A stretch of 64,000 nt of DNA from Mimachlamys varia (taxonomy: Eukaryota > Mollusca > Bivalvia > Pectinida > Pectinidae): assembly GCA_947623455.1 (NCBI GenBank), contig OX392528.1, positions 1,502,001 to 1,566,000 on the forward strand, given 5' to 3'. A program made the translations under genes and the position numbers. Shown piece after piece: positions 29,893-64,000 of the stretch. Each line of letters starts with the position of its first letter. Positions within the stretch are counted from its first letter, which is position 1. A model generated the notes under the pieces. It was not told where the DNA came from. It saw only the letters and a program-made list of their open reading frames with translations, and did not search any database.

Positions 29893-32089
29893 ATGGAGCT
29901 AGAGCTATTAACATGGAACTTACTTGTCTTCCTCATGATAGATCTAGAGCTATTAACATGGAACTTACTTGTCTTCCTCATGATAGAGCTATTAACATGG
30001 AACTTACTTGTCTTCCTCATGATAGATCTATTGACATGGAACTTACTTGTCTTCCTCATGATAGAGCTAGAGCTATTAACATGGAACTTACTTGTCTTCC
30101 TCATGATAGAGCTATTAACATGGAACTTACTTGTCTTCCTCATGATAGAGCTATTAACATGGAACTTACTTGTCTTCCTCATGATAGAGCTATTAACATG
30201 GAACTTACTTGTCTTCCTCATGATAGAGCTATTAACATGGAACTTACTTGTCTTCCTCATGATAGATCTATTAACATGGAACTTACTTGTCTTCCTCATG
30301 ATAGAGCTAGAGCTATTAACATGGAACTTACTTGTCTTCCTCATGATAGAGCTAGAGCTATTAACATGGAACTTACTTGTCTTCCTCATGATAGAGCTAG
30401 AGCTATTAACATGGAACTTACTTGTCTTCCTCATGATAGATCTATTAACATTGAACTTACTTGTCTTCCTCATGATAGAGCTAGAGCTATTAACATGGAA
30501 CTTACTTGTCTTCCTCATGATAGAGCTAGAGCTATTAACATGGAACTTACTTGTCTTCCTCATGATAGAGCTATTAACATGGAACTTACTTGTCTTCCTC
30601 ATGATAGAGCTATGAACATGGAACTTACTTGTCTTCCTCATGATAGAGCTAGAGCTATTAACATGGAACTTACTTGACTTCCTCATGATAGAGCTATTAA
30701 CATGGAACTTACTTGTCTTCCTCATGATAGAGCTAGAGCTATTAACATGGAACTTACTTGTCTTCCTCATGATAGAGCTATTAACATGGAACTTACTTGA
30801 CTTCCTCATGATAGAGCTATTAACATGGAACTTACTTGTCTTCCTCATGATAGAGCTATTAACATTGAACTTACTTGACTTCCTCATGATAGAGCTATTA
30901 ACATGGAACTTACTTGTCTTCCTCATGATAGAGCTAGAGCTATTAACATGGAACTTACTTGTCTTCCTCATGATAGAGCTATTAACATGGAACTTACTTG
31001 TCTTCCTCATGATAGAGCTAGAGCTATTAACATGGAACTTACTTGTCTTCCTCATGATAGAGCTATTAACATGGAACTTACTTGTCTTCCTCATGATAGA
31101 GCTATTAACATTGAACTTACTTGTCTTCCTCATGATAGAGCTATTAACATGGAACTTACTTGTCTTCCTCATGATAGAGCTATTAACATGGAACTTACTT
31201 GTCTTCCTCATGATAGAGCTATTAACATGGAACTTACTTGTCTTCCTCATGATAGAGCTATTAACATGGAACTTACTTGTCTTCCTCATGATAGATCTAT
31301 TGACATGGAACTTACTTGTCTTCCTCATGATAGAGCTATTAACATGGAACTTACTTGTCTTCCTCATGATAGAGCTATTAACATTGAACTTACTTGTCTT
31401 CCTCATGATAGAGCTATTAACATGGAACTTACTTGTCTTCCTCATGATAGAGCTATTAACATGGAACTTACTTGTCTTCCTCATGATAGAGCTATTAACA
31501 TGGAACTTACTTGTCTTCCTCATGATAGAGCTATTAACATTGAACTTACTTGTCTTCCTCATGATAGAGCTATTAACATGGAACTTACTTGTCTTCCTCA
31601 TGATAGATCTGTTAACATGGAACTTACTTGTCTTCCTCATGATAGATCTGTTAACATGGAACTTACTTGTCTTCCTCATGATAGAGCTATTAACATTGAA
31701 CTTACTTGTCTTCCTCATGATAGATCTATTAACATGGAACTTACTTGTCTTCCTCGTGATAGATCTATTAACATGGAACTTACTTGTCTTCCTCATGATA
31801 GAGCTATTGACATGGAACTTACTTGTCTTCCTCATGATAGAGCTAGAGCTATTGACATGGAACTTACTTGTCTTCCTCATGATAGAGCTAGAGCTATTAA
31901 CATGGAACTTACTTGTCTTCCTCATGATAGATCTATTAACATGGAACTTACTTGTCTTCCTCATGATAGAGCTAGAGCTATTGACATGGAACTTACTTGT
32001 CTTCCTCATGATAGAGCTATTAACATGGAACTTACTTGTCTTCCTCATGATAGAGCTATTAACATGGAACTTACTTGTCTTCCTCATGA
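29893..32089 (-). repeat. Array A5: 39/45-bp exon-end/splice-donor minisatellite, about 54 copies
   Basis: Read on the - strand, each unit is TCATGAGGAAGACAA|GTAAG then TTCCATGTTAATAGCTCTA. The first 15 nt match the last 15 nt of SRBD1 exon 6 and the rest matches the start of its intron, so every unit repeats the 5' splice site. The longer 45-bp form has a 6-bp AGAGCT insertion on the + strand. All lengths are multiples of 3 and the SRBD1 frame is open throughout (repeat MRKTSKFHVNSSI, with variants T/S, H/N, S/R), ending at a stop at 29874. No - strand stop occurs in this frame, while both open + strand frames are broken by substitutions. Confidence 0.95.
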
Positions 32090-32160
32090 AGTCCTGAACT
32101 TGTCGAATGAAGTTGGCATGTCCTACTTTTGAGGAATCAACCCCAATTCTCTCCAGTAGT
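32075..32160 (-). CDS. SRBD1: SRBD1 coding exon 6 of window, founder of array A5
   Basis: Acceptor TGTCATTTAG and donor AGACAA|GTAAGT bound 86 nt reading LLERIGVDSSKVGHANFIRQ and then VQDFMRKT. The last base A joins GT of exon 7 to give Ser (A|GT GTA ACC). The last 15 nt (TCATGAGGAAGACAA) are repeated in every unit of array A5, each followed by the same GTAAGT. The SRBD1 frame stays open through the whole array to a stop at 29874, so this exon could extend in frame if a downstream donor copy were used. Confidence 0.88.
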
Positions 32161-33738: not shown

Positions 33739-36700
33739 TTCAGTAGCCATTTTGACCTCTACTCTGTAACTAACAGAAGAAGTTCAATGGCCTTGTTGAT
33801 GTCTACTCTGTAACTTACCGTAGGAGATGTTCACTGGCCGTGTTGACGTATACTGTGTTACTTACCGTAGGAGGTGTTCACTGGCCATGTTGACGTCTGT
33901 GTTACTTACTGAAGCTAGGAGATGTTCACTGGCCGTGTTGACGTCTGTGTTACTTACTGTAGGAGATGTTCACTGGCCGTGTTGACGTCTGTGTTACTTA
34001 CTGTAGGAGGTGTTCACTGGCCGTGTTGACGTCTGTGTTACTTACTGTAGGAGGTGTTCACTGGCCGTGTTGACGTCTGTGTTACTTACTGTAGGAGGTT
34101 TTCACTGGCCATGTTGCCGTCTGTGTTACTTACTGAAGGAGATTTTCACTGGCCGTGTTGACGTCTGTGTTACTTACTGTAGGAGGTGTTCACTGGCCGT
34201 GTTGACGTCTGTGTTACTTACTGTAGGAGGTGTTCACTGGCCGTGTTGACGTCTGTGTTACTTACCGTAGGAGGTGTTCACTGGCCATGTTGACGTCTGT
34301 GTTACTTACTGAAGCTAGGAGATGTTCACTGGCCGTGTTGACGTCTGTGTTACTTACTGTAGGAGATGTTCACTGGCCGTGTTGACGTCTGTGTTACTTA
34401 CTGTAGGAGGTGTTCACTGGCCGTGTTGACGTCTGTGTTACTTACTGTAGGAGGTGTTCACTGGCCGTGTTGACGTCTGTGTTACTTACTGTAGGAGGTT
34501 TTCACTGGCCATGTTGCCGTCTGTGTTACTTACTGAAGGAGATTTTCACTGGCCGTGTTGACGTCTGTGTTACTTACTGTAGGAGGTGTTCACTGGCCGT
34601 GTTGACGTCTGTGTTACTTACTGTAGGAGGTGTTCACTGGCCGTGTTGACGTCTGTGTTACTTACTGTAGGAGGTGTTCACTGGCCATGTTGCCGTCTGT
34701 GTTACTTACTGAAGGAGATGTTCACTGGCCGTGTTGACGTCTGTGTTACTTACCGTAGGAGATGTTCACTGGCCGTGTTGACTTGTACTGTGTTACTTAC
34801 TGAGGAGATGTTCACTGGCTGTGTTGACGTATACTGTGTTACTTACCGTAGGAGATGTTCACTGGCCGTGTTGACGTATAATGTGTTACTTACCGTAGGA
34901 GATGTTCACTGGCCGTGTTGACGTATACTGTGTTACTTACTGTAGGAGGTGTTCACTGGCCATGTTGCCGTCTGTGTTACTTACTGAAGGAGATGTTCAC
35001 TGGCCGTGTTGACGTCTGTGTTACTTACTGTAGGAGATGTTCACTGGCCGTGTTGACGTCTGTGTTACTTACTGTAGGAGGTGTTCACTGGCCGTGTTGA
35101 CGTCTGTGTTACTTACTGTAGGAGGTGTTCACTGGCCGTGTTGACGTCTGTGTTACTTACTGTAGGAGGTTTTCACTGGCCATGTTGCCGTCTGTGTTAC
35201 TTACTGAAGGAGATTTTCACTGGCCGTGTTGACGTCTGTGTTACTTACTGTAGGAGGTGTTCACTGGCCGTGTTGACGTCTGTGTTACTTACTGTAGGAG
35301 GTGTTCACTGGCCGTGTTGACGTCTGTGTTACTTACTGTAGGAGGTGTTCACTGGCCATGTTGCCGTCTGTGTTACTTACTGAAGGAGATGTTCACTGGC
35401 CGTGTTGACGTCTGTGTTACTTACCGTAGGAGATGTTCACTGGCCGTGTTGACTTGTACTGTGTTACTTACTGAGGAGATGTTCACTGGCTGTGTTGACG
35501 TATACTGTGTTACTTACCGTAGGAGATGTTCACTGGCCGTGTTGACGTATAATGTGTTACTTACCGTAGGAGATGTTCACTGGCCGTGTTGACGTATACT
35601 GTGTTACTTACTGTAGGAGGTGTTCACTGGCCATGTTGCCGTCTGTGTCACTTACTGAAGGAGATGTTCACTGGCCGTGTTGATGTCTGTGTTACTTACC
35701 GTAGGAGATGTTCACTGGCCGTGTTGACTTGTACTGTGTTACTTACTGAGGAGATGTTCACTGGCTGTGTTGACGTATACTGTGTTACTTACCGTAGGAG
35801 ATGTTCACTGGCCGTGTTGACGTATACTGTGTTACTTACCGTAGGAGATGTTCACTGGCCGTGTTGACGTATACTGTGTCACTTACTGAGGAGATGTTCA
35901 CTGGCCGTGTTGACGTATACTGTGTTACTTACCGTAGGAGATGTTCACTGGCCGTGTTGACGTCTGTGTTACTTACTGAGGAGATGTTCACTGGCCGTGT
36001 TGACGTATACTGTGTTACTTACTGTAGGAGATGTTCACTGGACGTGTTGACCTATACTGTGTTTCTTACTGTAGGAGATGTTCACTGGACGTGTTGACGT
36101 CTGTGTTACTTACTGAGGAGATGTTCACTGGCCGTGTTGACGTATACTGTGTTACTTACTGAAGGAGATGTTCACTGGCCGTGTTGACGTATACTGTGTT
36201 ACTTACTGAAGGAGATGTTCACTGGCCGTGTTGATGTCTGTGTTACTTACCGTAGGAGATGTTCACTGGCCGTGTTGACGTCTGTGTTACTTACCGTAGG
36301 AGATGTTCACTGGCCGTGTTGACGTCTGTGTTACTTACCGTAGGAGATGTTCACTGGCCGTGTTGACGTCTGTGTTACTTACTGAGGAGATGTTCACTGG
36401 CCGTGTTGACGTATACTGTGTTACTTACTGTAGGAGATGTTCACTGGACGTGTTGACGTATACTGTGTTTCTTACTGTAGGAGATGTTCACTGGACGTGT
36501 TGACGTCTGTGTTACTTACTGAGGAGATGTTCACTGGCCGTGTTGACGTATACTGTGTTACTTACTGAAGGAGATGTTCACTGGCCGTGTTGACGTATAC
36601 TGTGTTACTTACTGAAGGAGATGTTCACTGGCCGTGTTGATGTCTGTGTTACTTACCGTAGGAGATGTTCACTGGCCGTGTTGACGTATACTGTGTTACT

Positions 36701-39700
36701 TACCGTAGGAGGTGTTCACTGGCCGTGTTGACGTCTGTATTACTTACCGTAGGAGATGTTCACTGGCCGTGTTGACGTCTGTGTTACTTACCGTAGGAGA
36801 TGTTCACTGGCCGTGTTGAAGTCTGTGTTACTTACTGTAGGAGATGTTCACTGGCCATATTGACGTATACTGTGTTACTTACCGTAGGAGAAGTTCACTG
36901 GCCGTGTTGACGTCTGTGTTACTTACCGTAGGAGATGTTCAGCGGTCGTGTTGACGTCTGTGTTACTTACCGTAGGAGATGTTCACTGGCCATGTTGACG
37001 TCTGTGTTACTTACCGTAGGAGATGTTCACTGGCCATGTTGTCGTCTGTGTTACTTACCGTAGGAGATGTTCACTGGCCATGTTGTCGTCTGTGTTACTT
37101 ACCGTAGGAGATGTTCACTGGCCATGTTGTCGTCTGTGTTACTTACCGTAGGAGATGTTCACTGGCCATGTTGACGTATACTGTGTTACTTACCGTAGGA
37201 GAAGTTCACTGGCCGTGTTGACGTCTGTGTTACTTACCGTAGGAGATGTTCAGCGGTCGTGTTGACGTCTGTGTTACTTACCGTAGGAGATGTTCACTGG
37301 CCATGTTGTCGTCTGTGTTACTTACCGTAGGAGATGTTCACTGGCCATGTTGATGTCTGTGTTACTTACCGTAGGAGATGTTCACTGGCCGTGTTGACGT
37401 CTGTGTTACTTACCGTAGGAGATGTTCACTGGCCGTGTTGACGTCTGTGTTACTTACCGTAGATGTTCACTGGCCATGTTGACGTCTGTGTTACTTACCG
37501 TAGGAGATGTTCACTGGCTGTGTTGACGTATACTGTGTTACTTACCGTAGGAGATGTTCACTGGCCGTGTTGACGTCTGTGTTACTTACTGTAGGAGGTG
37601 TTCACTGGCCGTGTTGACGTATACTGTGTTACTTACCGTAGGAGATGTTCACTGGCCATGTTGCCGTCTGTGTTACTTACCGTAGGAGGTGTTCACTGGC
37701 CGTGTTGACGTCTGTGTTACTTACCGTAGGAGATGTTCACTGGCCGTGTTGTCGTCTGTGTTACTTACCGTAGGAGATGTTCACTGGCCGTGTTGACGTA
37801 TACTGTGTTACTTACCGTAGGAGATGTTCACTGGCCGTGTTGTCGTCTGTGTTACTTACCGTAGGAGATGTTCAGTGGTCGTGTTGACGTCTGTGTTACT
37901 TACCGTAGGAGATGTTCACTGGCCGTGTTGACGTATACTGTGTTACTTACTGTAGGAGATGTTCACTGGCCGTGTTGACGTCTGTGTTACTTACCGTAGG
38001 AGATGTTCACTGGCCGTGTTGACGTCTGTGTTACTTACCGTAGGAGATGTTCACTGGCCGTGTTGTCGTCTGTGTTACTTACCGTAGGAGATGTTCAGTG
38101 GTCGTGTTGACGTCTGTGTTACTTACCATAGGAGATGTTCACATGCCATGTTGACGTATACTGTGTTACTTACCGTAGGAGATGTTCACTGGCCGTGTTG
38201 ACGTCTGTGTTACTTACCGTAGGAGATGTTCACTGGCCATGTTGACGTCTGTGTTACTTACCGTAGGAGATGTTCACTGGCCATGTTGACGTTTGTGTTA
38301 CTTACCGTAGGAGATGTTCACTGGTCGTGTTGATGTCTGTGTTACTTACCGTAGGAGATGTTCACTGGCCATGTTGACGTTTGTGTTACTTACCGTAGGA
38401 GATGTTCACTGGCCGTGTTGATGTCTGTGTTACTTACCGTAGGAGATGTTCACTGGCCGTGTTGACGTCTGTGTTACTTACCGTAGGAGATGTTCACTGG
38501 CCGTGTTGACGTCTGTGTTACTTACCGTAGGAGATGTTCACTGGCCATGTTGCCGTCTGTGTTACTTACCGTAGGAGATGTTCACTGGCCATGTTGACGT
38601 CTGTGTTACTTACCGTAGGAGATGTTCACTGGCTGTGTTGACGTCTGTGTTACTTACCCTAGGAGATGTTCACTGGCCGTGTTGACGTCTGTGTTACTTA
38701 CCGTAGGAGATGTTCACTGGCCATGTTGACGTATACTGTGTTACTTACCGTAGGAGATGTTCACTGGCCGTGTTGACTTCTGTGTTACTTACCGTAGGAG
38801 ATGTTCACTGGCCATGTTGACGTATACTGAGTTACTTACCGTAGGAGATGTTCACTGGCCGTGTTGACTTCTGTGTTACTTACCGTAGGAGATGTTCACT
38901 GGCCATGTTGACGTATACTGTGTTACTTACCGTAGGAGATGTTCACTGGCCGTGTTGACTTCTGTGTTACTTACCGTAGGAGATGTTCACTGGCCATGTT
39001 GACGAATACTGTGTTACTTACCGTAGGAGATGTTCACTGGCCGTGTTGACGTCTGTGTTACTTACCGTAGGAGATGTTCACTGGCCGTGTTGACGTCTGT
39101 GTTACTTACCGTAGATGTTCACTGGCCATGTTGACGTCTGTGTTACTTACCGTAGGAGATGTTCACTGGCCGTGTTGACGTATACTGTGTTACTTACCGT
39201 AAAAGATGTTCACTGGCCGTGTTGCCGTCTGTGTTACTTACCGTAGGAGATGTTCACTGGCCGTGTTGACGTCTGTGTTACTTACCGTAGGAGATGTTCA
39301 CTGGCCGTGTTGACGTCTGTGTTACTTACCGTAGGAGATGTTCACTGGCCATGTTGCCGTCTGTGTTACTTACCGTAGGAGATGTTCACTGGCCGTGTTG
39401 ACGTCTGTGTTACTTACCGTAGGAGGTGTTCACTGGCCGTGTTGACGTCTGTGTTACTTACCGTAGGAGATGTTCACTGGCCGTGTTGACGTCTGTGTTA
39501 CTTACCGTAGGAGGTGTTCACTGGCCGTGTTGACGTATACTGTGTTACTTACCGTAGGAGATGTTCACTGGCCATGTTGACGTCTGTGTTACTTACCGTA
39601 GGAGATGTTCACTGGCCGTGTTGACGTCTATGTTACTTACCGTAGGAGATGTTCACTGGCCGTGTTGACGTATACTGTGTTACTTACCGTAGGAGATGTT

Positions 39701-42700
39701 CACTGGCCGTGTTGACGTCTGTGTTACTTACTGTAGGAGGTGTTCACTGGCCGTGTTGACGTATACTGTGTTACTTACTGAAGGAGATGTTCACTGGCCG
39801 TGTTGATGTCTGTGTTACTTACCGTAGGAGATGTTCACTGGCCGTGTTGACGTCTGTGTTACTTACCGTAGGAGATGTTCACTGGCCGTGTTGACGTCTG
39901 TGTTACTTACCGTAGGAGATGTTCACTGGCCGTGTTGACGTCTGTGTTACTTACTGAGGAGATGTTCACTGGCCGTGTTGACGTATACTGTGTTACTTAC
40001 TGTAGGAGATGTTCACTGGACGTGTTGACGTATACTGTGTTTCTTACTGTAGGAGATGTTCACTGGACGTGTTGACGTCTGTGTTACTTACTGAGGAGAT
40101 GTTCACTGGCCGTGTTGACGTATACTGTGTTACTTACTGAAGGAGATGTTCACTGGCCGTGTTGACGTATACTGTGTTACTTACTGAAGGAGATGTTCAC
40201 TGGCCGTGTTGATGTCTGTGTTACTTACCGTAGGAGATGTTCACTGGCCGTGTTGACGTATACTGTGTTACTTACCGTAGGAGGTGTTCACTGGCCGTGT
40301 TGACGTCTGTGTTACTTACCGTAGGAGATGTTCACTGGCCGTGTTGACGTCTGTGTTACTTACCGTAGGAGATGTTCACTGGCCGTGTTGAAGTCTGTGT
40401 TACTTACTGTAGGAGATGTTCACTGGCCATATTGACGTATACTGTGTTACTTACCGTAGGAGAAGTTCACTGGCCGTGTTGACGTCTGTGTTACTTACCG
40501 TAGGAGATGTTCAGCGGTCGTGTTGACGTCTGTGTTACTTACCGTAGGAGATGTTCACTGGCCATGTTGACGTCTGTGTTACTTACCGTAGGAGATGTTC
40601 ACTGGCCATGTTGTCGTCTGTGTTACTTACCGTAGGAGATGTTCACTGGCCATGTTGTCGTCTGTGTTACTTACCGTAGGAGATGTTCACTGGCCATGTT
40701 GTCGTCTGTGTTACTTACCGTAGGAGATGTTCACTGGCCATGTTGACGTATACTGTGTTACTTACCGTAGGAGAAGTTCACTGGCCGTGTTGACGTCTGT
40801 GTTACTTACCGTAGGAGATGTTCAGCGGTCGTGTTGACGTCTGTGTTACTTACCGTAGGAGATGTTCACTGGCCATGTTGTCGTCTGTGTTACTTACCGT
40901 AGGAGATGTTCACTGGCCATGTTGATGTCTGTGTTACTTACCGTAGGAGATGTTCACTGGCCGTGTTGACGTCTGTGTTACTTACCGTAGGAGATGTTCA
41001 CTGGCCGTGTTGACGTCTGTGTTACTTACCGTAGATGTTCACTGGCCATGTTGACGTCTGTGTTACTTACCGTAGGAGATGTTCACTGGCTGTGTTGACG
41101 TATACTGTGTTACTTACCGTAGGAGATGTTCACTGGCCGTGTTGACGTCTGTGTTACTTACTGTAGGAGGTGTTCACTGGCCGTGTTGACGTATACTGTG
41201 TTACTTACCGTAGGAGATGTTCACTGGCCATGTTGCCGTCTGTGTTACTTACCGTAGGAGGTGTTCACTGGCCGTGTTGACGTCTGTGTTACTTACCGTA
41301 GGAGATGTTCACTGGCCGTGTTGTCGTCTGTGTTACTTACCGTAGGAGATGTTCACTGGCCGTGTTGACGTATACTGTGTTACTTACCGTAGGAGATGTT
41401 CACTGGCCGTGTTGTCGTCTGTGTTACTTACCGTAGGAGATGTTCAGTGGTCGTGTTGACGTCTGTGTTACTTACCGTAGGAGATGTTCACTGGCCGTGT
41501 TGACGTATACTGTGTTACTTACTGTAGGAGATGTTCACTGGCCGTGTTGACGTCTGTGTTACTTACCGTAGGAGATGTTCACTGGCCGTGTTGACGTCTG
41601 TGTTACTTACCGTAGGAGATGTTCACTGGCCGTGTTGTCGTCTGTGTTACTTACCGTAGGAGATGTTCAGTGGTCGTGTTGACGTCTGTGTTACTTACCA
41701 TAGGAGATGTTCACTGGCCATGTTGACGTATACTGTGTTACTTACCGTAGGAGATGTTCACTGGCCGTGTTGACGTCTGTGTTACTTACCGTAGGAGATG
41801 TTCACTGGCCATGTTGACGTTTGTGTTACTTACCGTAGGAGATGTTCACTGGTCGTGTTGATGTCTGTGTTACTTACCGTAGGAGATGTTCACTGGCCAT
41901 GTTGACGTTTGTGTTACTTACCGTAGGAGATGTTCACTGGCCGTGTTGATGTCTGTGTTACTTACCGTAGGAGATGTTCACTGGCCGTGTTGACGTCTGT
42001 GTTACTTACCGTAGGAGATGTTCACTGGCCGTGTTGACGTCTGTGTTACTTACCGTAGGAGATGTTCACTGGCCATGTTGCCGTCTGTGTTACTTACCGT
42101 AGGAGATGTTCACTGGCCATGTTGACGTCTGTGTTACTTACCGTAGGAGATGTTCACTGGCCGTGTTGACGTCTGTGTTACTTACCCTAGGAGATGTTCA
42201 CTGGCCGTATTGACGTCTGTGTTACTTACCGTAGGAGATGTTCACTGGCCGTGTTGACTTCTGTGTTACTTACCGTAGGAGATGTTCACTGGCCGTGTTG
42301 ACGTCTGTGTTACTTACCGTAGGAGATGTTCACTGGCCATGTTGACGTATACTGTGTTACTTACCGTAGGAGATGTTCACTGGCCGTGTTGACTTCTGTG
42401 TTACTTACCGTAGGAGATGTTCACTGGCCATGTTGACGTATACTGTGTTACTTACCGTAGGAGATGTTCACTGGCCGTGTTGACTTCTGTGTTACTTACC
42501 GTAGGAGATGTTCACTGGCCATGTTGACGTATACTGTGTTACTTACCGTAGGAGATGTTCACTGGCCGTGTTGACTTCTGTGTTACTTACCGTAGGAGAT
42601 GTTCACTGGCCATGTTGACGTATACTGTGTTACTTACCGTAGGAGATGTTCACTGGCCGTGTTGACGTCTGTGCTACTTACCGTAGGAGATGTTCACTGG

Positions 42701-45700
42701 CCGTGTTGACGTCTGTGTTACTTACCGTAGATGTTCACTGGCCATGTTGACGTCTGTGTTACTTACCGTAGGAGATGTTCACTGGCCGTGTTGACGTCTG
42801 TGTTACTTACCTTAGGAGATGTTCACTGGCCGTGTTGTCGTCTGTGTTACTTACCGTAGGAGATGTTCACTGGCCGTGTTGTCGTCTGTGTTACTTACCG
42901 TAGGAGATGTTCACTGGCCGTGTTGTCGTCTGTGTTACTTACCGTAGGAGATGTTCACTGGCCATGTTGTCGTCTGTGTTACTTACCGTAGGAGATGTTC
43001 ACTGGCCGTGTTGATGTCTGTGTTACTTATCGTAGGAGATGTTCACTGGCCGTGTTGACGTCTGTGTTACTTACCGTAGGAGATGTTCACTGGCCGTGTT
43101 GACGTCTGTGTTACTTACCGTAGGAGATGTTCACTGGCCGTGTTGCCGTCTGTGTTACTTACCGTAGGAGATGTTCACTGGCCGTGTTGACGTCTGTGTT
43201 ACTTACCGTAGGAGATGTTCACTGGCCGTGTTGACGTCTGTGTTACTTACCGTAGATGTTCACTGGCCATGTTGACGTCTGTGTTACTTACCGTAGGAGA
43301 TGTTCACTGGCCGTGTTGACGTATACTGTGTTACTTACCGTAGGAGATGTTCACTGGCCGTGTTGACGTATACTGTGTTACTTACTGAAGGAGATGTTCA
43401 CTGGCCGTGTTGATGTCTGTGTTACTTACCGTAGGAGATGTTCACTGGCCGTGTTGACGTCTGTGTTACTTACCGTAGGAGATGTTCACTGGCCGTGTTG
43501 ACGTCTGTGTTACTTACCGTAGGAGATGTTCACTGGCCGTGTTGACGTATACTGTGTTACTTACCGTAGGAGATGTTCACTGGCCATGTTGACGAATACT
43601 GTGTTACTTACCGTAGGAGATGTTCACTGGCCGTGTTGACGTCTGTGTTACTTACCGTAGGAGATGTTCACTGGCCGTGTTGACGTCTGTGTTACTTACC
43701 GTAGATGTTCACTGGCCATGTTGACGTCTGTGTTACTTACCGTAGGAGATGTTCACTGGCCGTGTTGACGTATACTGTGTTACTTACCGTAGGAGATGTT
43801 CACTGGCCGTGTTGACGTATACTGTGTTACTTACTGAAGGAGATGTTCACTGGCCGTGTTGATGTCTGTGTTACTTACCGTAGGAGATGTTCACTGGCCG
43901 TGTTGACGTCTGTGTTACTTACCGTAGGAGATGTTCACTGGCCGTGTTGACGTCTGTGTTACTTACCGTAGGAGATGTTCACTGGCCGTGTTGACGTCTG
44001 TGTTACTTACTGAGGAGATGTTCACTGGCCGTGTTGACGTATACTGTGTTACTTACTGTAGGAGATGTTCACTGGACGTGTTGACGTATACTGTGTTTCT
44101 TACTGTAGGAGATGTTCACTGGACGTGTTGACGTCTGTGTTACTTACTGAGGAGATGTTCACTGGCCGTGTTGACGTATACTGTGTTACTTACTGAAGGA
44201 GATGTTCACTGGCCGTGTTGACGTATACTGTGTTACTTACTGAAGGAGATGTTCACTGGCCGTGTTGATGTCTGTGTTACTTACCGTAGGAGATGTTCAC
44301 TGGCCGTGTTGACGTATACTGTGTTACTTACCGTAGGAGGTGTTCACTGGCCGTGTTGACGTCTGTGTTACTTACCGTAGGAGATGTTCACTGGCCGTGT
44401 TGACGTCTGTGTTACTTACCGTAGGAGATGTTCACTGGCCGTGTTGAAGTCTGTGTTACTTACTGTAGGAGATGTTCACTGGCCATATTGACGTATACTG
44501 TGTTACTTACCGTAGGAGAAGTTCACTGGCCGTGTTGACGTCTGTGTTACTTACCGTAGGAGATGTTCAGCGGTCGTGTTGACGTCTGTGTTACTTACCG
44601 TAGGAGATGTTCACTGGCCATGTTGACGTCTGTGTTACTTACCGTAGGAGATGTTCACTGGCCATGTTGTCGTCTGTGTTACTTACCGTAGGAGATGTTC
44701 ACTGGCCATGTTGTCGTCTGTGTTACTTACCGTAGGAGATGTTCACTGGCCATGTTGTCGTCTGTGTTACTTACCGTAGGAGATGTTCACTGGCCATGTT
44801 GACGTATACTGTGTTACTTACCGTAGGAGAAGTTCACTGGCCGTGTTGACGTCTGTGTTACTTACCGTAGGAGATGTTCAGCGGTCGTGTTGACGTCTGT
44901 GTTACTTACCGTAGGAGATGTTCACTGGCCATGTTGTCGTCTGTGTTACTTACCGTAGGAGATGTTCACTGGCCATGTTGATGTCTGTGTTACTTACCGT
45001 AGGAGATGTTCACTGGCCGTGTTGACGTCTGTGTTACTTACCGTAGGAGATGTTCACTGGCCGTGTTGACGTCTGTGTTACTTACCGTAGATGTTCACTG
45101 GCCATGTTGACGTCTGTGTTACTTACCGTAGGAGATGTTCACTGGCTGTGTTGACGTATACTGTGTTACTTACCGTAGGAGATGTTCACTGGCCGTGTTG
45201 ACGTCTGTGTTACTTACTGTAGGAGGTGTTCACTGGCCGTGTTGACGTATACTGTGTTACTTACCGTAGGAGATGTTCACTGGCCATGTTGCCGTCTGTG
45301 TTACTTACCGTAGGAGGTGTTCACTGGCCGTGTTGACGTCTGTGTTACTTACCGTAGGAGATGTTCACTGGCCGTGTTGTCGTCTGTGTTACTTACCGTA
45401 GGAGATGTTCACTGGCCGTGTTGACGTATACTGTGTTACTTACCGTAGGAGATGTTCACTGGCCGTGTTGTCGTCTGTGTTACTTACCGTAGGAGATGTT
45501 CAGTGGTCGTGTTGACGTCTGTGTTACTTACCGTAGGAGATGTTCACTGGCCGTGTTGACGTATACTGTGTTACTTACTGTAGGAGATGTTCACTGGCCG
45601 TGTTGACGTCTGTGTTACTTACCGTAGGAGATGTTCACTGGCCGTGTTGACGTCTGTGTTACTTACCGTAGGAGATGTTCACTGGCCGTGTTGTCGTCTG

Positions 45701-48051
45701 TGTTACTTACCGTAGGAGATGTTCAGTGGTCGTGTTGACGTCTGTGTTACTTACCATAGGAGATGTTCACTGGCCATGTTGACGTATACTGTGTTACTTA
45801 CCGTAGGAGATGTTCACTGGCCGTGTTGACGTCTGTGTTACTTACCGTAGGAGATGTTCACTGGCCATGTTGACGTTTGTGTTACTTACCGTAGGAGATG
45901 TTCACTGGTCGTGTTGATGTCTGTGTTACTTACCGTAGGAGATGTTCACTGGCCATGTTGACGTTTGTGTTACTTACCGTAGGAGATGTTCACTGGCCGT
46001 GTTGATGTCTGTGTTACTTACCGTAGGAGATGTTCACTGGCCGTGTTGACGTCTGTGTTACTTACCGTAGGAGATGTTCACTGGCCGTGTTGACGTCTGT
46101 GTTACTTACCGTAGGAGATGTTCACTGGCCATGTTGCCGTCTGTGTTACTTACCGTAGGAGATGTTCACTGGCCATGTTGACGTCTGTGTTACTTACCGT
46201 AGGAGATGTTCACTGGCCGTGTTGACGTCTGTGTTACTTACCCTAGGAGATGTTCACTGGCCGTGTTGACGTCTGTGTTACTTACCGTAGGAGATGTTCA
46301 CTGGCCGTGTTGACTTCTGTGTTACTTACCGTAGGAGATGTTCACTGGCCGTGTTGACGTCTGTGTTACTTACCGTAGGAGATGTTCACTGGCCATGTTG
46401 ACGTATACTGTGTTACTTACCGTAGGAGATGTTCACTGGCCGTGTTGACTTCTGTGTTACTTACCGTAGGAGATGTTCACTGGCCATGTTGACGTATACT
46501 GTGTTACTTACCGTAGGAGATGTTCACTGGCCGTGTTGACTTCTGTGTTACTTACCGTAGGAGATGTTCACTGGCCATGTTGACGTATACTGTGTTACTT
46601 ACCGTAGGAGATGTTCACTGGCCGTGTTGACTTCTGTGTTACTTACCGTAGGAGATGTTCACTGGCCATGTTGACGTATACTGTGTTACTTACCGTAGGA
46701 GATGTTCACTGGCCGTGTTGACGTCTGTGCTACTTACCGTAGGAGATGTTCACTGGCCGTGTTGACGTCTGTGTTACTTACCGTAGATGTTCACTGGCCA
46801 TGTTGACGTCTGTGTTACTTACCGTAGGAGATGTTCACTGGCCGTGTTGACGTCTGTGTTACTTACCTTAGGAGATGTTCACTGGCCGTGTTGTCGTCTG
46901 TGTTACTTACCGTAGGAGATGTTCACTGGCCGTGTTGTCGTCTGTGTTACTTACCGTAGGAGATGTTCACTGGCCGTGTTGTCGTCTGTGTTACTTACCG
47001 TAGGAGATGTTCACTGGCCATGTTGTCGTCTGTGTTACTTACCGTAGGAGATGTTCACTGGCCGTGTTGATGTCTGTGTTACTTATCGTAGGAGATGTTC
47101 ACTGGCCGTGTTGACGTCTGTGTTACTTACCGTAGGAGATGTTCACTGGCCGTGTTGACGTCTGTGTTACTTACCGTAGGAGATGTTCACTGGCCGTGTT
47201 GCCGTCTGTGTTACTTACCGTAGGAGATGTTCACTGGCCGTGTTGACGTCTGTGTTACTTACCGTAGGAGATGTTCACTGGCCGTGTTGACGTCTGTGTT
47301 ACTTACCGTAGGAGATGTTCACTGGCCATGTTGCCGTCTGTGTTACTTACCGTAGGAGATGTTCACTGGCCGTGTTGACGTCTGTGTTACTTACCGTAGG
47401 AGGTGTTCACTGGCCGTGTTGACGTCTGTGTTACTTACCGTAGGAGATGTTCACTGGCCGTGTTGACGTCTGTGTTACTTACCGTAGGAGGTGTTCACTG
47501 GCCGTGTTGACGTATACTGTGTTACTTACCGTAGGAGATGTTCACTGGCCATGTTGACGTCTGTGTTACTTACCGTAGGAGATGTTCACTGGCCGTGTTG
47601 ACGTCTATGTTACTTACCGTAGGAGATGTTCACTGGCCGTGTTGACGTATACTGTGTTACTTACCGTAGGAGATGTTCACTGGCCGTGTTGACGTCTGTG
47701 TTACTTACCGTAGGAGATGTTCACTGGCCGTGTTGACGTCTATGTTACTTACCGTAGGAGATGTTCACTGGCCGTGTTGACGTATACTGTGTTACTTACC
47801 GTAGGAGATGTTCACTGGCCGTGTTGACGTCTGTGTTACTTACCGTAGGAGATGTTCACTTGCCATGTTGACACCTGTGTTACTTACCGTAGGAGATGTT
47901 CACTGGCCGTGTTGACGTCTGTGTTACTTACCGTAGGAGATGTTCACTGGCCATGTTGACGTCTGTGTTACTTACCGTAGGAGGTGTTCACTGGCCGTGT
48001 TGACGTCCGTGTTACTTACCGTAGGAGATGTTCACTGGCCGTGTTGACGTC
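33739..48051 (-). repeat. Array A6: 44/47-bp exon-end/splice-donor minisatellite, about 320 copies
   Basis: On the - strand each unit is GACGTCAACACGGCCAGTGA then ACATCTCCTACG, then GTAAGTAACACA. The first 32 nt equal the last 32 nt of SRBD1 exon 3 (48020-48051) and the last 12 nt equal the start of its intron, including GTAAGT. A 47-bp form has ACAGTATAC in place of ACAGAC. The array starts at the exon itself and runs 14.3 kb. Units become diverged at the far (33.74 kb) end. About 95% of the 15-kb intron is this array. Confidence 0.96.
36300..47850. repeat. Higher-order duplications in A6, periods about 3572 and 4056 bp
   Basis: Rare variants recur in register. CCATATTGACG occurs near 36856, 40427 and 44484; GTGCTACTTACC near 42672 and 46728; ACTTATCGTAGG near 43027 and 47083. 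The 39.8-43.8 kb block is nearly identical to 43.8-47.8 kb, with differences such as CCGTATTGACG near 42209 against CCGTGTTGACG in the other copy. Smaller duplications of 400 and 671 bp lie at 34010-35600. Confidence 0.88.
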
Positions 48052-48126
48052 CACCCCTACAAAGCTCACACACTCCTCCACCACAGAGTCCAGGGAAGTT
48101 TGCATCTGCTTCTCAGGCATGTCGTG
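48020..48126 (-). CDS. SRBD1: SRBD1 coding exon 3 of window ([12 protein letters not shown])
   Basis: Acceptor ATTTTAG and donor CTACG|GTAAGT bound 35 codons plus two bases. It reads [20 protein letters not shown] and then [15 protein letters not shown], with the Arg codon completed by the next exon (CG|G). D.VVE.CV..VGVD.NTAS..LL is conserved from bacterial Tex to human SRBD1. The last 32 nt (48020-48051, coding [11 protein letters not shown]) plus the first 12 nt of the intron make the 44-bp unit of array A6. Reading through the donor meets TAA at once (CGG TAA), so a longer exon would truncate the protein. Confidence 0.93.
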
Positions 48127-48982: not shown

Positions 48983-51900
48983 GATTCGGATAATTACCTA
49001 GTACTGTCCTACCCCAATGTGTTTAGGATCACTAGGATAAATTACCCGGTACTGTCCTACTCCGATGTGTTTAAGATCACTAGGATAATTACCTGGTAAT
49101 GTCCTACTGATGTGTTTAGGATCACTAGGATAATTACCCGGTACTGCCCTACTCTGTTGTGTTTAGAATCACTAGGATAATTACCTGGTATTGTCCTACT
49201 CCAATGTGTTAGGATCTCTAGGATAATTACCTGGTACTGTCCTACTCCGATGTGTTAGGATCTCTAGGATAATTACCTGGTACTGTCCTACTCCGATGTG
49301 TTTAGGATCACCAGGATAATTACCTGGTACTGTCCTACTGATGTGTTTAGGATCACTAGGATAATTACCCGGTACTGCCCTACTCTGTTGTGTTTAGAAT
49401 CACTAGGATAATTACCTGGTACTGTCCTACTGCGATGTGTTAGGATCACTAGGATAATTACCCGGTACTGTCCTACTCCGATGTGTTTAGGATCACTGGG
49501 ATAATTACCTGGTACTGTCCTACTCCGATGTGTTAGGATCACTAGGATAATTACCTGGTACTGTCCTACTCCGATGTGTTTAGGATCACTGGGATAATTA
49601 CCCGGTACTGTCCTACTCCGATGTGTTAGGATCACTAGGATAATTACCCGGTACTGTCCTACTCCGATGTGTTAGGATCACTAGGATAATTACCCGGTAC
49701 TGTCCTACTCCGATGTGTTTAGGATCACTGGGATAATTACCCGGTACTGTCCTACTGCGATGTGTTTAGGATCACTAGGATAATTACCCGGTACTGCCCT
49801 ACTCCGATGTGTTTAGGATCACTGGGATAATTACCTGGTACTGTCCTACTCCGATGTGTTAGGATCACTAGGATAATTACCTGGTACTGTCCTACTCCGA
49901 TGTGTTTAGGATCACTAGGATGATTACCTGGTACTGTCCTACTCCGATGTGTTTAGGATCACTAGGATCATTACCCGGTACTGTCCTACTCCGATGTGTT
50001 TAGGATCACTAGGATGATTACCTGGTACTGTCCTACTCCAATGTGTTTAGGATCACTAGGATAATTACCTGGTACTGTCCTACTCCGATGTGTTTAGGAT
50101 CTCTAGGATAATTACCTGGTACTGTCGTACTCTGATGTGTTTAGGATCACTAGGATAATTACCTGGTACTGTCCTACTCCGATATGTTTAGGATCACTAG
50201 GATAATTACCTGGTACTGTCCTACTCCGATGTGTTTAGGATCACTAGGATCATTACCCGGTACTGTCCTACTCCGATGTGTTTAGGATCACTAGGATGAT
50301 TACCTGGTACTGTCCTACTCCGATGTGTTTAGGATCACTGGGATAATTACCTGGTACTGTCCTACTCCGATGTGTTAGGATCTCTAGGATAATTACCTGG
50401 TACTGTCCTACTCCGATGTGTTTAGGATCACTAGGATAATTACCTGGTACTGTCCTACTCCGATGTGTTAAGGATCACTAGGATAATTACCTGGTACTGT
50501 CCTACTCCGATGTGTTTAGGATCACTGGGATAATTACCCGGTACTGTCCTACTCCAATGTGTTTAGGATCACTAGGATAATTACCTGGTACTGTCCTACT
50601 CCGATATGTTTAGGATCACTAGGATATTTACCTGGTACTGTCCTACTCCGATGTGTTAAGGATCACTAGGATAATTACCTGGTACTGTCCTACTCCGATG
50701 TGTTTAGGATCACTGGGATAATTACCTGGTACTGTCCTACTCCGATGTGTTTAGGATCTCTAGGATAATTACCTGGTACTGTCCTACTCCGATGTGTTTA
50801 GGATCACTGGGATAATTACCTGGTACTGTCCTACTCCGATGTGTTAGGATCTCTAGGATAATTACCTGGTACTGTCCTACTCCGATGTGTTTAGGATCAC
50901 TGGGATAATTACCTGGTACTGTCCTACTCCGATGTGTTTAGGATCACTAGGATAATTACCTGGTACTGTCCTACTCCGATGTGTTAGGATCTCTAGGATA
51001 ATTACCTGGTACTGTCCTACTCCGATGTGTTTAGGATCACTAGGATAATTACCTGGTACTGTCCTACTCCGATGTGTTTAGGATCACTGGGATAATTACC
51101 GGTACTGTCCTACTCCGATGTGTTTAGGATCACTAGGATAATTACCTGGTACTGTCCTACTCCGATGTGTTTAGGATCACTGGGATAATTACCTGGTACT
51201 GTCCTACTCCGATGTGTTAAGGATCACTAGGATAATTACCTGGTACTGTCCTACTCCGATGTGTTTCGGATCACTAGGATAATTACCTGGTACTGTCCTA
51301 CTCCGATGTGTTTAGGATCACTAGGATCATTACCTGGTACTGTCCTACTCCGATGTGTTTAGGATCACTGGGATAATTACCTGGTACTGTCCTACTCCGA
51401 TGTGTTTAAGATAACTAGGATAATTACCCGGTACTGTCCTACTCCGATGTGTTTAGGATCACTAGGATCATTACCTGGTACTGTCCTACTCCGATGTGTT
51501 TAGGATCACTAGGATAATTACCTGGTACTGTCCTACTCCGATGTGTTAGGATCACTAGGATATTTACCTGGTATTGTCCTACTCCAATGTGTTAGGATCT
51601 CTAGGATAATTACCTGGTACTGTCCTACTCCGATGTGTTAGGATCTCTAGGATAATTACCTGGTACTGTCCTACTCTGATGTGTTTAGGATCACTGGGAT
51701 AATTACCCGGTACTGTCCTACTCCAATGTGTTAGGATCTCTAGGATAATTACCTGGTACTGTCCTACTCCGATGTGTTTAGGATCACTAGGATAATTACC
51801 TGGTATTGTCCTACTCCAATGTGTTTAGGATCACTAGGATAATTACCCGGTACTGTCCTACTCCAATGTGTTTAGGATCACTAGGATAATTACCCGGTAC

Positions 51901-53332
51901 TGTCCTACTCCGATGTGTTAGGATCTCTAGGATAATTACCTGGTACTGTCCTACTCCGATGTGTTTAGGATCACTAGGATAATTACCTGGTATTGTCCTA
52001 CTCCAATGTGTTTAGGATCACTAGGATAATTACCTGGTACTGTCCTACTCCGATGTGTTTAGGATCTCTAGGATAATTACCCGGTACTGTCCTACTCCGA
52101 TGTGTTTAGGATCACTAGGATCATTACCTGGTACTGTCCTACTCCGATGTATTTAGGATCACTAGGATAATTACCTGGTACTGTCCTACTCCGATGTGTT
52201 TAGGATCACTAGGATAATTACCCGGTACTGTCGTACTCCGATGTGTTTAAGATCACTAGGATAATTACCTGGTACTGTCCTACTCCGATGTGTTCAGGAT
52301 CACTAGGATAATTACCTGGTACTGTCCTACTCCGATATGTTTAGGATCACTAGGATAATTACCTGGTACTGTCCTACTCCAATGTGTTTAGGATAACTAG
52401 GATAATTACCTGGTACTGTCCTACTCCGATGTGTTCAGGATCTCTAGGATAATTACCTGGTACTGTCCTACTCCGATGTGTTAGGATCTCTAGGATAATT
52501 ACCTGGTACTGTCCTACTCCGATGTGTTTAGGATCACTAGGATAATTACCTGGTACTGTCCTACTCCAATGTGTTTAGGATAACTAGGATAATTACCTGG
52601 TACTGTCCTACTCCGATGTGTTTAAGATCACTAGGATAATTACCTGGTACTGTCCTACTCCGATGTGTTCAGGATCACTGGGATAATTACCTGGTACTGT
52701 CCTACTCCGATGTGTTTAGGATCACTAGGATAATTACCTGGTACTGTCCTACTCCGATGTGTTTAAGATCACTAGGATAATTACCTGGTACTGTCCTACT
52801 CCGATGTGTTTAGGATCACTAGGATAATAACCGGTACTGTCCTACTCCAATGTGTTAAGGATCACTAGGATAATTACCTGGTACTGTCCTACTCCGATGT
52901 GTTTAAGATCACTAGGATAATTACCTGGTACTGTCCTACTCCGATGTGTTTAGGATCACTGGGATAATTACCTGGTACTGTCCTACTCCAATGTGTTAAG
53001 GATCACTAGGATAATTACCTGGTACTGTCCTACTCCAATGTGTTTAGGATCACTGGGATAATTACCTGGTACTGTCCTACTCCGATGTGTTAGGATCACT
53101 AGGATAATTACCTGGTACTGTCCTACTCCGATGTGTTTAGGATCACTAGGATAATTACCTGGTACTGTCCTACTCCGATGTGTTTAAGATCACTAGGATA
53201 ATTACCTGGTACTGTCCTACTCCGATGTGTTTAAGATCACTAGGATAATTACCCGGTACTGTCCTACTCCGATGTGTTTAAGATCACTAGGATAATTACC
53301 TGGTACTGTCCTACTCCGATGTGTTTAGGATC
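48983..53332 (-). repeat. Array A7: 46/47-bp exon-end/splice-donor minisatellite, about 93 copies
   Basis: On the - strand each unit is GATCCTAAACACATCGGAGT then AGGACAGTACCAG, then GTAATTATCCTAGT. The first 33 nt are the end of SRBD1 exon 2 ([11 protein letters not shown]) and the last 14 nt are its intron start, so each unit copies the donor. Many units have CGG instead of CAG before the donor, or lack one T in TAAAC (46 bp). The array touches the exon and occupies about 4.3 kb of the 5.2-kb intron. Confidence 0.95.
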
Positions 53333-53382
53333 AACCTTTACAAACTCAGCGAGAGGATCCAGCAAACGTCTGGCAATGGAAA
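53300..53382 (-). CDS. SRBD1: SRBD1 coding exon 2 of window ([11 protein letters not shown])
   Basis: Acceptor CTATTTCAG and donor CAG|GTAATT bound two bases plus 27 codons. It reads [16 protein letters not shown] and then [11 protein letters not shown], one of the most conserved blocks of the Tex/SRBD1 family. The last 33 nt (53300-53332), encoding [11 protein letters not shown], are the founding sequence of array A7: with the first 14 nt of the intron they form its 47-bp unit. The real exon copy differs from the intronic copies just upstream of the shared sequence (GTTGATCC here, AGTGATCC in the array), which separates exon from array. Confidence 0.93.
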
Positions 53383-54338: not shown

Positions 54339-57300
54339 TAGGCATGATGGATTTAGTGATTTATAAGTAGGCATGTTGGATTTAGTGATTTATAGGTAGG
54401 CATTATGGATTTAGTGATTTATAAGTAGGCATGTTGGATTTAGTGATTTATAAGTAGGCATGTTGATTAGTGATTTATAAGTAGGCATGTTGGATTTAGT
54501 GATTTATAAGTAGGCATGTTGTTAGTGATTTATAAGAAGGCATGTTGGATTTAGTGATTTATAAGTAGGCATGTTGGATTTAGTGATTTATAAGTAGGCA
54601 TGTTGGATTTAGTGATTTATAAGTAGGCATGTTGATTAGTGATTTATAAGTAGGCATGTTGGATTTAGTGATTTATAAGTAGGCATGTTGGATTTAGTGA
54701 TTTATAAGTAGGCATGTTGATTAGTGATTTATAAGTAGGCATGTTGGATTTAGTGATTTATAAGTAGGCATGTTGGATTTAGTGATTTATAAGTAGGCAT
54801 GTTGATTAGTGATTTATAAGTAGGCATGTTGGATTTAGTGATTTATAAGTAGGCATGTTGATTAGTGATTTATAAGCAGGCATGTTGGATTTAGTGATTT
54901 ATAAGTAGGCATGTTGATTAGTGATTTATAAGTAGGCATGTTGGATTTAGTGATTTATAAGTAGGCATGTTGATTAGTGATTTATAAGTAGGCATGTTGG
55001 ATTTAGTGATTTATAAGTAGGCATGTTGGATTTAGTGATTTATAAGTAGGCATGTTGTATTTAGTGATTTATAAGTAGGCATGTTGATTAGTGATTTATA
55101 AGTAGGCATGTTGATTAGTGATTTATAAGTAGGCATGTTGATTAGTGATTTATAAGTAGGCATGTTGGATTTAGTGATTTATAAGTAGGCATGTTGGATT
55201 TAGTGATTTATAAGTAGGCATGTTGGATTTAGTGATTTATAAGTAGGCATGTTGATTAGTGATTTATAAGTAGGCATGTTGATTAGTGATTTATAAGTAG
55301 GCATGTTGATTAGTGATTTATAAGTAGGCATGTTGGATTTAGTGATTTATAAGTAGGCATGTTGATTAGTGATTTATAAGTATGCATGTTGATTAGTGAT
55401 TTATAAGTAGGCATGTTGGATTAAGTGATTTATAAGTAGGCATGTTGGATTTAGTGATTTATAAGTAGGCATGTTGGATTTAGTGATTTATAGGTAGGCA
55501 TGTTGGATTTAGTGATTTATAAGTAGGTATGTTGGATTTAGTGATTTATAAGTAGGTATGTTAGATTTAGTGATTTATAAGTAGGCATGTTGATAAGTGA
55601 TTTATAAGTAGGCATGTTGGATTTAGTGATTTATAAGCAGGCATGTTAGATTTAGTGATTTATAAGTAGGCATGTTGATAAGTGATTTATAAGTAGGTAT
55701 GTTGGATTTAGTGATTTATAGGTAGGTATGTTAGATTTAGTGATTTATAAGTAGGCATGTTGATTAGTGATTTATAAGTAGGCATGTTGGATTTAGTGAT
55801 TTATAAGTAGGCATGTTGGATTTAGTGATTTATAAGTAGGCATGTTGATTAGTGATTTATTAGTAGGCATGTTGGATTTAGTGATTTATAAGTAGGCATG
55901 TTGATTAGTGATTTATAAGTAGGCTTGTTGGATTTAGTGATTTATAAGTAGGCATGTTGGATTTAGTGATTTATACGTAGGCATGTTGGATTTAGTGATT
56001 TATAAGTAGGCATGTTGATTAGTGATTTATAAGTAGGCATGTTGATTAGTGATTTATAAGTAGGCATGTTGATTAGTGATTTATAAGTAGGCATGTTGGA
56101 TTTAGTGATTTATAAGTAGGCATGTTGATTAGTGATTTATAAGTAGGCATGTTGGATTTAGTGATTTATAAGTAGGCATGTTGAATTTAGTGATTTATAA
56201 GTAGGCATGTTAGATTTAGTGGTTTATAAGTAGGCATGTTGGATTTAGTGATTTATAAGTAGGCATGTTGGATTTAGTGATTTATAAGTAGGCATGTTAG
56301 ATTTAGTGATTTATAAGTAGGCATGTTGGATTTAGTGATTTATAAGTAGGCATGTTGGATTTAGTGATTTATAAGTAGGCATGTTGGATTTAGTGATTTA
56401 TAAGTAGGCATGTTGGATTTAGTGATTTATAAGTAGGCATGTTGATTAGTGATTTATAAGTAGGCATGTTGATTAGTGATTTATAAGTAGGCATGTTGAT
56501 TAGTGATTTATAAGTAAGCATGTTAGATTTAGTGATTTATAAGTAGGCATGTTGATTAGTGATTTATAAGTAGGCATGTTGGATTTAGTGATTTATAAGT
56601 AGGCATGTTGGATTTAGTGATTTATAAGTAGGCATGTTGATTAGTGATTTATAAGTAGGCATGTTGGATTTAGTGATTTATAAGTAGGCATGTTGGATTT
56701 AGTGATTTATAAGTAGGCATGTTGGATTTAGTGATTTATAAGTAGGCATGTTGGATTTAGTGATTTATAAGTAGGCATGTTGATTAGTGATTTATAAGTA
56801 GGCATGTTGATTAGTGATTTATAAGTAGGCATGTTGATTAGTGATTTATAAGTAGGCATGTTGGATTTAGTGATTTATAAGTAGGCATGTTGATTAGTGA
56901 TTTATAAGTAGGCATGTTGGATTTAGTGATTTATAAGTAGGCATGTTAGATTTAGTGATTTATAAGTAGGCATGTTGGATTTAGTGATTTATAAGTAGGC
57001 ATGTTGGATTTAGTGATTTATAGGTAGGCATGTTGGATTAAGTGATTTATAAGTAGGCATGTTGGATTTAGTGATTTATAAGTAGGCATGTTGGATTTAG
57101 TGATTTATAGGTAGGCATGTTGGATTAAGTGATTTATAAGTAGGTATGTTGGATTTAGTGATTTATAAGTAGGTATGTTAGATTTAGTGATTTATAAGTA
57201 GGCATGTTGATAAGTGATTTATAAGTAGGCATGTTGGATTTAGTGATTTATAAGCAGGCATGTTAGATTTAGTGATTTATAAGTAGGCATGTTGATAAGT

Positions 57301-63300: not shown

Positions 63301-64000
63301 TTTATAAGTAGGCATGTTGATTAGTGATTTATAAGTAGGCATGTTGGATTTAGTGATTTATAAGTAGGCATGTTGGATTTAATGATTTATAAGTAGGCAT
63401 GTTGGATTTAGTGATTTATAAGTAGGCATGTTGATTAGTGATTTATAAGTAGGCATGTTGGATTTAGTGATTTATAAGTAGGCATGTTAGATTTAGTGAT
63501 TTATAAGTAGGCATGTTGGATTTAGTGATTTATAAGTAGGCATGTTGGATTTAGTGATTTATAGGTAGGCATGTTGGATTAAGTGATTTATAAGTAGGCA
63601 TGTTGGATTTAGTGATTTATAAGTAGGCATGTTGGATTTAGTGATTTATAGGTAGGCATGTTGGATTAAGTGATTTATAAGTAGGTATGTTGGATTTAGT
63701 GATTTATAAGTAGGTATGTTAGATTTAGTGATTTATAAGTAGGCATGTTGATAAGTGATTTATAAGTAGGCATGTTGGATTTAGTGATTTATAAGCAGGC
63801 ATGTTAGATTTAGTGATTTATAAGTAGGCATGTTGATAAGTGATTTATAAGTAGGTATGTTGGATTTAGTGATTTATAAGCAGGCATGTTAGATTTAGTG
63901 ATTTATAAGTAGGCATGTTGATAAGTGATTTATAAGTAGGCATGTTGGATTTAGTGATTTATAAGTAGGCATGTTGGATTTAGTGATTTATAGGTAGGCA
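54339..64000. repeat. Array A8: 27/29-bp minisatellite, about 345 copies
   Basis: The + strand unit is TAGGCATGTTGGATTTAGTG then ATTTATAAG (29 bp); the 27-bp form reads GTTGATTAGTG. Subtypes include GGTATG, AGCAGG, ATACGTAGG, ATTAGTAGG and GTTAGATT. It runs off the right edge. It starts about 185 nt upstream of the SRBD1 exon 1 acceptor, so it lies in the preceding SRBD1 intron. The unit does not match any visible exon end. The consensus unit on the SRBD1 sense strand has no GT and no AG dinucleotide. Confidence 0.95.
57100..63000. repeat. Higher-order duplication in A8, period about 2.94 kb
   Basis: Rare variants recur in order. GGCATTTGGATT occurs at about 57456 and 60397 (offset 2941); TTGGACTTAGTG near 58233 and 61146; GGCGTGTTGG near 58512 and 61424; GGTATGCTGATT near 58542 and 61454. 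A related series begins again near 63640. The array therefore grew partly by block duplication. Confidence 0.82.

Follow-up and report, generated by a model that had tools for sequence, protein, structure and literature searches.

Tandem arrays built from exon ends and their 5′ splice sites in introns of the scallop Mimachlamys varia

In the scallop Mimachlamys varia, several introns are greatly enlarged by tandem arrays in which a unit joining the end of the preceding exon to its splice donor recurs tens to hundreds of times. The arrays described here come from a stretch of 64,000 nucleotides of chromosome 2 (contig OX392528.1, positions 1502001-1566000; hereafter the window), which is occupied by two convergent genes, XRCC3 on the forward (+) and SRBD1 on the reverse (-) strand, and from the flanks of that stretch. 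We think it probable that they are exon-donor boundary minisatellites that have grown on the intron side, with splicing using the first donor and the later copies acting as decoys. About 86% of the window is taken up by eight main tandem arrays, A to H (sum of the eight main rows of Tandem Repeats Finder, TRF).

Arrays were called by TRF, the flanks of the window also being scanned, and donor strength was expressed as U1 pairing energy (dG, kcal/mol). Coordinates are in window numbering, negative values and values above 64000 lying in the flanks, and a vertical bar within a sequence marks an exon–intron junction. The assembly used comprises 975.3 Mb in 71 contigs and represents one haplotype; the alternate haplotype is available as GCA_947622925.1. 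The part of XRCC3 in the window is 95% identical to XRCC3 of Mizuhopecten yessoensis, and the window had no Rfam match at the gathering threshold.

Array F and the SRBD1 exon at its edge

Read in the sense of SRBD1, the consensus unit of array F is GACGTCAACACGGCCAGTGAACATCTCCTACG|GTAAGTAACACA, that is, the last 32 nt of an exon followed by the first 12 nt of the intron, with the donor ACG|GTAAGT, and the array begins inside that exon; the original prediction, made from the letters of the window, had described both the unit and its starting point correctly. Parsing yielded 319 full copies in 59 variants, with the GT intact in 317 and positions +1 to +6 intact in 313 of them. The intron holding the array measures 15,053 nt, and the 811 nt of it that are not array close with an acceptor of their own, CTGTTTACTAG|GAGG. 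That 48020-48126 is a genuine exon was put to check against homologues. Its donor junction (SEHLLR|RTAGL) aligns without a gap to five of five, and its acceptor junction (GQYQ|HDMPE) does so in the three that reach it, the other two, from Mytilus, beginning there. The label 'exon 3' that had been given to it is wrong, because SRBD1 continues with more exons to the right of the window.

One could suspect an artefact, since long arrays assemble poorly, and the copy number may indeed be off. We nevertheless regard an assembly artefact as extremely improbable, given the many distinct arrays in several genes, their internal variants and sharp exon edges, and the matching published assembly (975.4 Mb, 82 scaffolds) built from 44-fold HiFi reads (PMC11252643).

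Hundreds of equal U1 sites had been predicted to follow the true donor, and the predicted pairing agrees: among the 315 later donor copies found in F, 236 match the true donor in U1 pairing, 5 surpass it and 74 are weaker. Over 12 arrays, the median donor copy equals the true donor in 10, being stronger in array b and weaker in array d of the neighbouring gene RAB3GAP2. U1 strength thus fails to mark the true donor; position does mark it, conserved exons being joined by the first copy alone. Splicing at a later copy, which had been expected to bring in a TAA immediately, puts a stop in the message for all 315 F copies, and across the 12 arrays this holds for 1217 of 1271; the copies counted are those close to the true donor and are fewer than the TRF copy numbers. 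Exceptions to this rule are array E, where 53 of 53 are open in frame, and RAB3GAP2 h, where one of two is without a stop.

The exonic part of the F copies declines with distance from the exon, from 0.948 in the nearest quarter to 0.847 in the farthest (rho -0.29, p 2e-7). Among nine arrays tested, such a gradient is weak in A (rho -0.09, p 0.02), not significant in G (0.952 to 0.862, p 0.07) and absent in six others. Growth at the exon end only, which we considered, is not supported by these gradients.

Recurrence and placement of the donor arrays

The single array of the original prediction understates the phenomenon, as at least 11 such arrays were found in three neighbouring genes and one more on another chromosome. 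The features of the window are collected in Table 1. An array sits at the donor in 11 of 25 cases: 7 of 13 in RAB3GAP2, 1 of 5 in XRCC3 and 3 of 7 in the part of SRBD1 that lies in the window. All 11 start between -42 and 0 relative to intron position +1, adjoining the exon with no unique intron sequence between, and according to TRF the units repeat 9-42 nt of the exon in 10 of them. At the acceptors located in the three genes, no such array was found (0 of 22).

Table 1. Tandem arrays and associated exons, with positions in window numbering
Feature	Position	Strand	Description
Array A	1..14283 in window; whole -22994 to 14283	+	51 bp, 725.6 copies, 37.3 kb
Next XRCC3 exon	14709..14798	+	exon before A must be spliced here across 37.7 kb
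Array B	14902..15927	+	61 bp x 17, XRCC3 intron; starts 103 nt past donor; no exon origin seen
Array C	16335..17198	+	40 bp x 21; ends 11 nt before XRCC3 acceptor, exon excluded
Array D	17939..26233	+	34 bp x 244, XRCC3 intron; starts 47 nt past donor
Array E	29900..32089	-	39 bp x 54; last 15 nt of SRBD1 exon + 24 nt of intron, CAA|GTAAGT
SRBD1 exon seeding array E	32075..32160	-	LLERIGVDSS...FMRKT
Array F	33778..48051	-	TRF period 44 bp, 319.6 copies, 92% matches
SRBD1 exon seeding array F	48020..48126	-	HDMPEKQ...EHLLR; true donor, intron +1 at 48019
Array G	48988..53333	-	47 bp x 92.9; last 34 nt of SRBD1 exon + 13 nt of intron, CAG|GTAATT
SRBD1 exon seeding array G	53300..53382	-	...[11 protein letters not shown]; intron +1 at 53299
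Array H	54339..64000 in window, running to 87542	-	29 bp; no boundary array

The unit of array A holds the end of an XRCC3 exon (LPVVS|) together with the donor CAG|GTAACT, and contains CTCCCTGTTGTTTCAG|GTAACT. LPVVS, its in-frame reading, is what the M. yessoensis protein has just ahead of the part encoded by the first XRCC3 exon in the window. The unit and the Mizuhopecten protein together led to the prediction that the start of A would be found within an XRCC3 exon beyond the window edge, and this was confirmed in the flank, where an exon ...VAQAVPKLPVVS ends at -22978 and the array begins within it.

RAB3GAP2 (PF14655; PDB 8vyb_B, E = 8.5e-178) is the next gene to the left of XRCC3 and played no part in the original prediction; its arrays have periods of 26 to 53 bp. 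The junctions of five of the seven (b, d, e, g and h) are continuous in the human protein. One more donor, m, defied placement and is additional to the 25 counted, and with a U1 pairing of -0.9 donor a is uncertain. At exon h the array, of 29 bp, has only 3.2 copies at 98% identity and is an early stage of such arrays. Its duplication starts in the exon at TTCT, and the intron resumes with TTCT after the last copy, a 4-base microhomology of the kind that replication slippage would leave.

In SRBD1, joining the first copy of G gives a junction continuous with the three of three homologues that cover it, and the first-copy junction of E is continuous with five of five. The 54 full units of E are 39 nt (40 units) or 45 nt (14 units) long, and the SRBD1 frame runs through the array without a stop, 761 codons counted from the exon start (29876-32160, - strand), so that each of its later donors, which stay in frame in 53 of 53 cases, would add RKTSKFHVNSSIM-type repeats. 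It could therefore be that the copies are alternative donors in use, E adding 13-residue repeats to SRBD1 and the other arrays tuning expression via decay, and low-level splicing that retains a unit does occur at the human ABCA7 array discussed below. However, repeats of this type are present at the E junction in none of the five homologues, the E variants, read by hand, are mostly amino-acid changing, and nearly all later donors in the 12 arrays lead to stops; we hold this possibility to be quite improbable.

Recurrence extends to another chromosome. A 50-kb sample of chromosome 9 gave seven TRF rows, two of which (36467-36768 and 36777-37210) are one 58-bp array at ASH1L, a gene identified by PDB 3ope_A. 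Its unit consists of the end of the exon ...KTLDPIHTG| with the donor CAG|GTAGGT, and the first-copy junction restores the conserved protein. Three further rows of this sample were inspected and yielded no boundary case.

In the three neighbouring genes, array position is not independent of splice sites, as it would be for ordinary intronic minisatellites. Of 17 arrays in 24 introns, 10 start at or before the donor, where uniform placement expects 3.05 (P = 6.6e-5), and with arrays of at least 10 copies the count is 9 of 13 (P = 4e-5). Overlap with the acceptor exon was seen in 0 of the 17 (P = 0.027). The test took arrays of at least 2.5 copies in introns with both ends set, five acceptor ends being taken from open reading frames with no located motif; placement was uniform over the non-array part of each intron, and arrays of the same intron were treated as independent. 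Array n of RAB3GAP2 was excluded because its acceptor is unknown. In addition, 15 of 60 TRF units (period up to 120, from 364 kb, some units being rows of one array) carry a donor with a dG of -8 or better, whereas 60 shuffled sets averaged 5.0 and reached 11 at most.

Such figures could mean that exon–intron boundaries are mutational hot spots, where a feature linked to the donor in transcribed DNA, for example R-loops or the step in composition between exon and intron, greatly raises the rate of short duplications, with survival playing a small part. Both the excess of arrays at donors with none overlapping an acceptor and the excess of strong donors over shuffles are what one would expect from it. 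Yet the difference between donors and acceptors fits survival alone equally well, since duplicating an acceptor would load the message with repeated exon sequence; moreover, one acceptor array exists, and the nascent array at exon h shows plain microhomology. We are inclined to doubt that hot spots are the principal cause.

Comparison with known systems

Choice among equal 5′ splice sites is an old question that has mostly been tested with few engineered copies. The scallop arrays offer a natural ordered series of 3 to about 725 near-identical donors with intact reading frames, in frame-breaking and frame-keeping versions, and knowing which copy is used would discriminate between first-come (transcription order), exon-definition and intron-proximity models. 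The donor bias also hints at a possible link between splice sites and the birth of tandem repeats, and the arrays could help to explain the swelling of scallop introns by tandem repeats. Ratchet points are known from recursive splicing. An array of recursive splice sites should have a pyrimidine tract and AG before each GT, which does not hold in F (ACG|GT) or E (CAA|GT), and since F, E and RAB3GAP2 g are without AG before GT, recursive splicing cannot be the general mechanism. Array A does look this way: a branch-like TACTGAC, a run of pyrimidines and TTTCAG|GTAACT occur together in its unit, which resembles a recursive-splicing ratchet point or zero-length exon, array-wide.

In the intron-gain model, a new intron draws both of its splice sites from a duplicated piece of exon. 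The tandem duplication described for intron gain likewise copies splice-site sequence (PMC4974935), but the scallop introns keep an unrelated 3′ part and their own acceptor, with 811, 861 and 1153 non-array nt in the introns of F, G and E, respectively.

The original prediction was not aware that minisatellites delimited by the junction of an exon and its donor had been described as a class. This claim of novelty does not stand: a donor-including minisatellite is already known from one human gene, ABCA7, and tandem repeats at exon–intron boundaries have been surveyed in human segmental duplications (PMC2812944). The variable number tandem repeat (VNTR) of ABCA7 intron 18 has a 25-bp unit, present about 12 to 427 times in arrays that reach about 10.7 kb, and lies directly at exon 18 with the donor included; retention of one unit amounts to about 2% and is unchanged with array length, and use of copy 2 leads to a frameshift and a stop (PMC5954066). 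With the scallop arrays it shares its position at an exon edge, a unit that holds the exon's own donor, and hundreds of copies. A unit containing the adjoining 5′ splice site, in an array that abuts the exon, is present at each of the 11 array-bearing donors, and the ASH1L unit contains its own 5′ splice site. The ABCA7 VNTR is nevertheless one locus whose first two bases are the GT, and it repeats no exon sequence, unlike 10 of the 11 scallop arrays; the array of RAB3GAP2 d does begin at the GT itself, as in ABCA7, and only four donor-like copies, all weak, were found in it. The repeats in human segmental duplications resemble those of the scallop in having units of about 30 bp at boundaries that alter splicing, and differ from the donor arrays in averaging about four copies, in belonging to a gene family and in being discussed as new introns (PMC2812944). 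What is new is the scale (up to 37 kb), the recurrence at donors of three genes and ASH1L, the repeated exon sequence and the donor-side bias.

Searches of open-licence literature brought up no paper on exon-donor arrays in molluscs. Scallop genome papers report a high tandem-repeat content (PMC10225492, PMC5700196), and a paper on minisatellites in Caenorhabditis elegans deals with different intronic motifs (PMC4039745). In the engineered duplicated donor pair of C. elegans unc-73(az100), the upstream copy is used more (PMC8865678), which by analogy would agree in direction with first-donor choice.

Origin of the arrays and role of the donor copies

In our preferred reading, a short tandem duplication (26-58 bp) would by chance span the 3′ end of an exon and its 5′ splice site, and would be retained because the first copy keeps exon and donor. 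Slippage or unequal exchange could then expand the array on the intron side, taking it from 3 copies into the hundreds. The spliceosome would use the exon-proximal donor of the pre-mRNA, and use of a decoy would nearly always lead to a stop codon and to loss of the RNA by nonsense-mediated decay, the arrays being presumably mostly passive. As long as the first donor is chosen, duplication of a donor would do no harm to the coding end, whereas duplication of an acceptor would add exon copies to the message if any acceptor but the last were taken. Such a filter by survival accounts for the difference between donors and acceptors but falls short of the whole excess of donors relative to the interior of introns; hot-spot mutation, or some advantage of carrying additional donors, may contribute.

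A benefit is conceivable if loading of U1 on the copies strengthened recognition of the upstream exon or blocked premature polyadenylation, thereby permitting intron growth. The donor copies are largely intact, in F as given above and elsewhere with the GT kept in 92 of 92 copies of G, 54 of 54 of E and 261 of the 278 copies of A in the window, and strong sites lie mainly on the gene sense strand in A, D, E, F and G. In B and C, on the other hand, strong sites are commoner antisense, H (33 kb) has none on the sense strand at a dG of -5 or better in its window part, the few donor-like copies of RAB3GAP2 d are weak, and conservation in the donor columns does not clearly exceed that of the remaining unit. 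By haplotype conservation among circular windows, positions +1 to +6 rank 1 of 44 in F, 10 of 39 in E, 14 of 51 in A and 24 of 47 in G, and 3 of 34 in D, whose unit is not exonic. Retention of the arrays for such a function appears improbable to us. Selection on the donor columns was considered separately, with ranks by copies, haplotypes and alleles, and we make no overall claim for it: they look conserved in F and not in A, E or G, and those of the non-exonic D look as conserved as those of F.

A bolder proposal, which we put forward only tentatively, is that the arrays belong to a genome-wide scallop class of boundary-born minisatellites, mostly at 5′ splice sites and in a large share of genes, driven by donor-linked mutation or by selection for additional U1 sites, with the first donor strictly winning even over hundreds of equal donors downstream.

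Several observations weigh against the reading as exon-donor boundary minisatellites. Since uniform neutral placement is rejected, simple tolerance alone fails to explain the donor excess, and the donors of the copies are not degraded, though decoys should be costly. The later copies of E keep the frame. Other long arrays (B, C, D and H) lie away from donors in these introns, and there is an acceptor-side array at 115458-117644. Two of the RAB3GAP2 cases are less firm: j has a 4-residue gap, because the start of the following exon was omitted from the alignment, and the alignment to the human protein stops short of the end of n. A 50-kb sample of chromosome 5 with eight TRF rows gave no recognised case, inspection having covered the edge of a single row; another row, cut off at the very start of the sample, carries CAG|GTATAC. 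The locus was chosen for its arrays, and the test therefore speaks of placement in introns and not of abundance. In ABCA7, skipping of exon 19 rises with array length (PMC5954066), so that such arrays need not be harmless.

Further arrays lie in the 5′ half of SRBD1, to the right of the window. One (105589-114230) has its TRF start 4 nt past a donor, with ACAG|GTAAAC in the unit and ACAG|GTAAGG at the true donor, and another (117721-143748; 26 kb, 42 bp, 618.6 copies) starts 7 nt past a donor. The unit of the acceptor-side array (41 bp x 52 by TRF) holds TTTCAG|GTCTGAGTTGTTGAAGG, which comprises the acceptor and the opening nucleotides of an SRBD1 exon that starts at 115475; this 23-mer occurs in 20 exact copies, and splicing there must take the last acceptor. 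That the arrays are acceptor relics in general was discarded, this being the only acceptor-side array seen.

In XRCC3, the unit of D carries ACAG|GTTGTT, and exon sequence was not recognised in it. Array C takes most of its intron and leaves the exon untouched. The consensus unit of H is without AG and without GT in the gene sense, and its 29-bp unit reappears at 98720-104142, giving two very long arrays within one SRBD1 intron.

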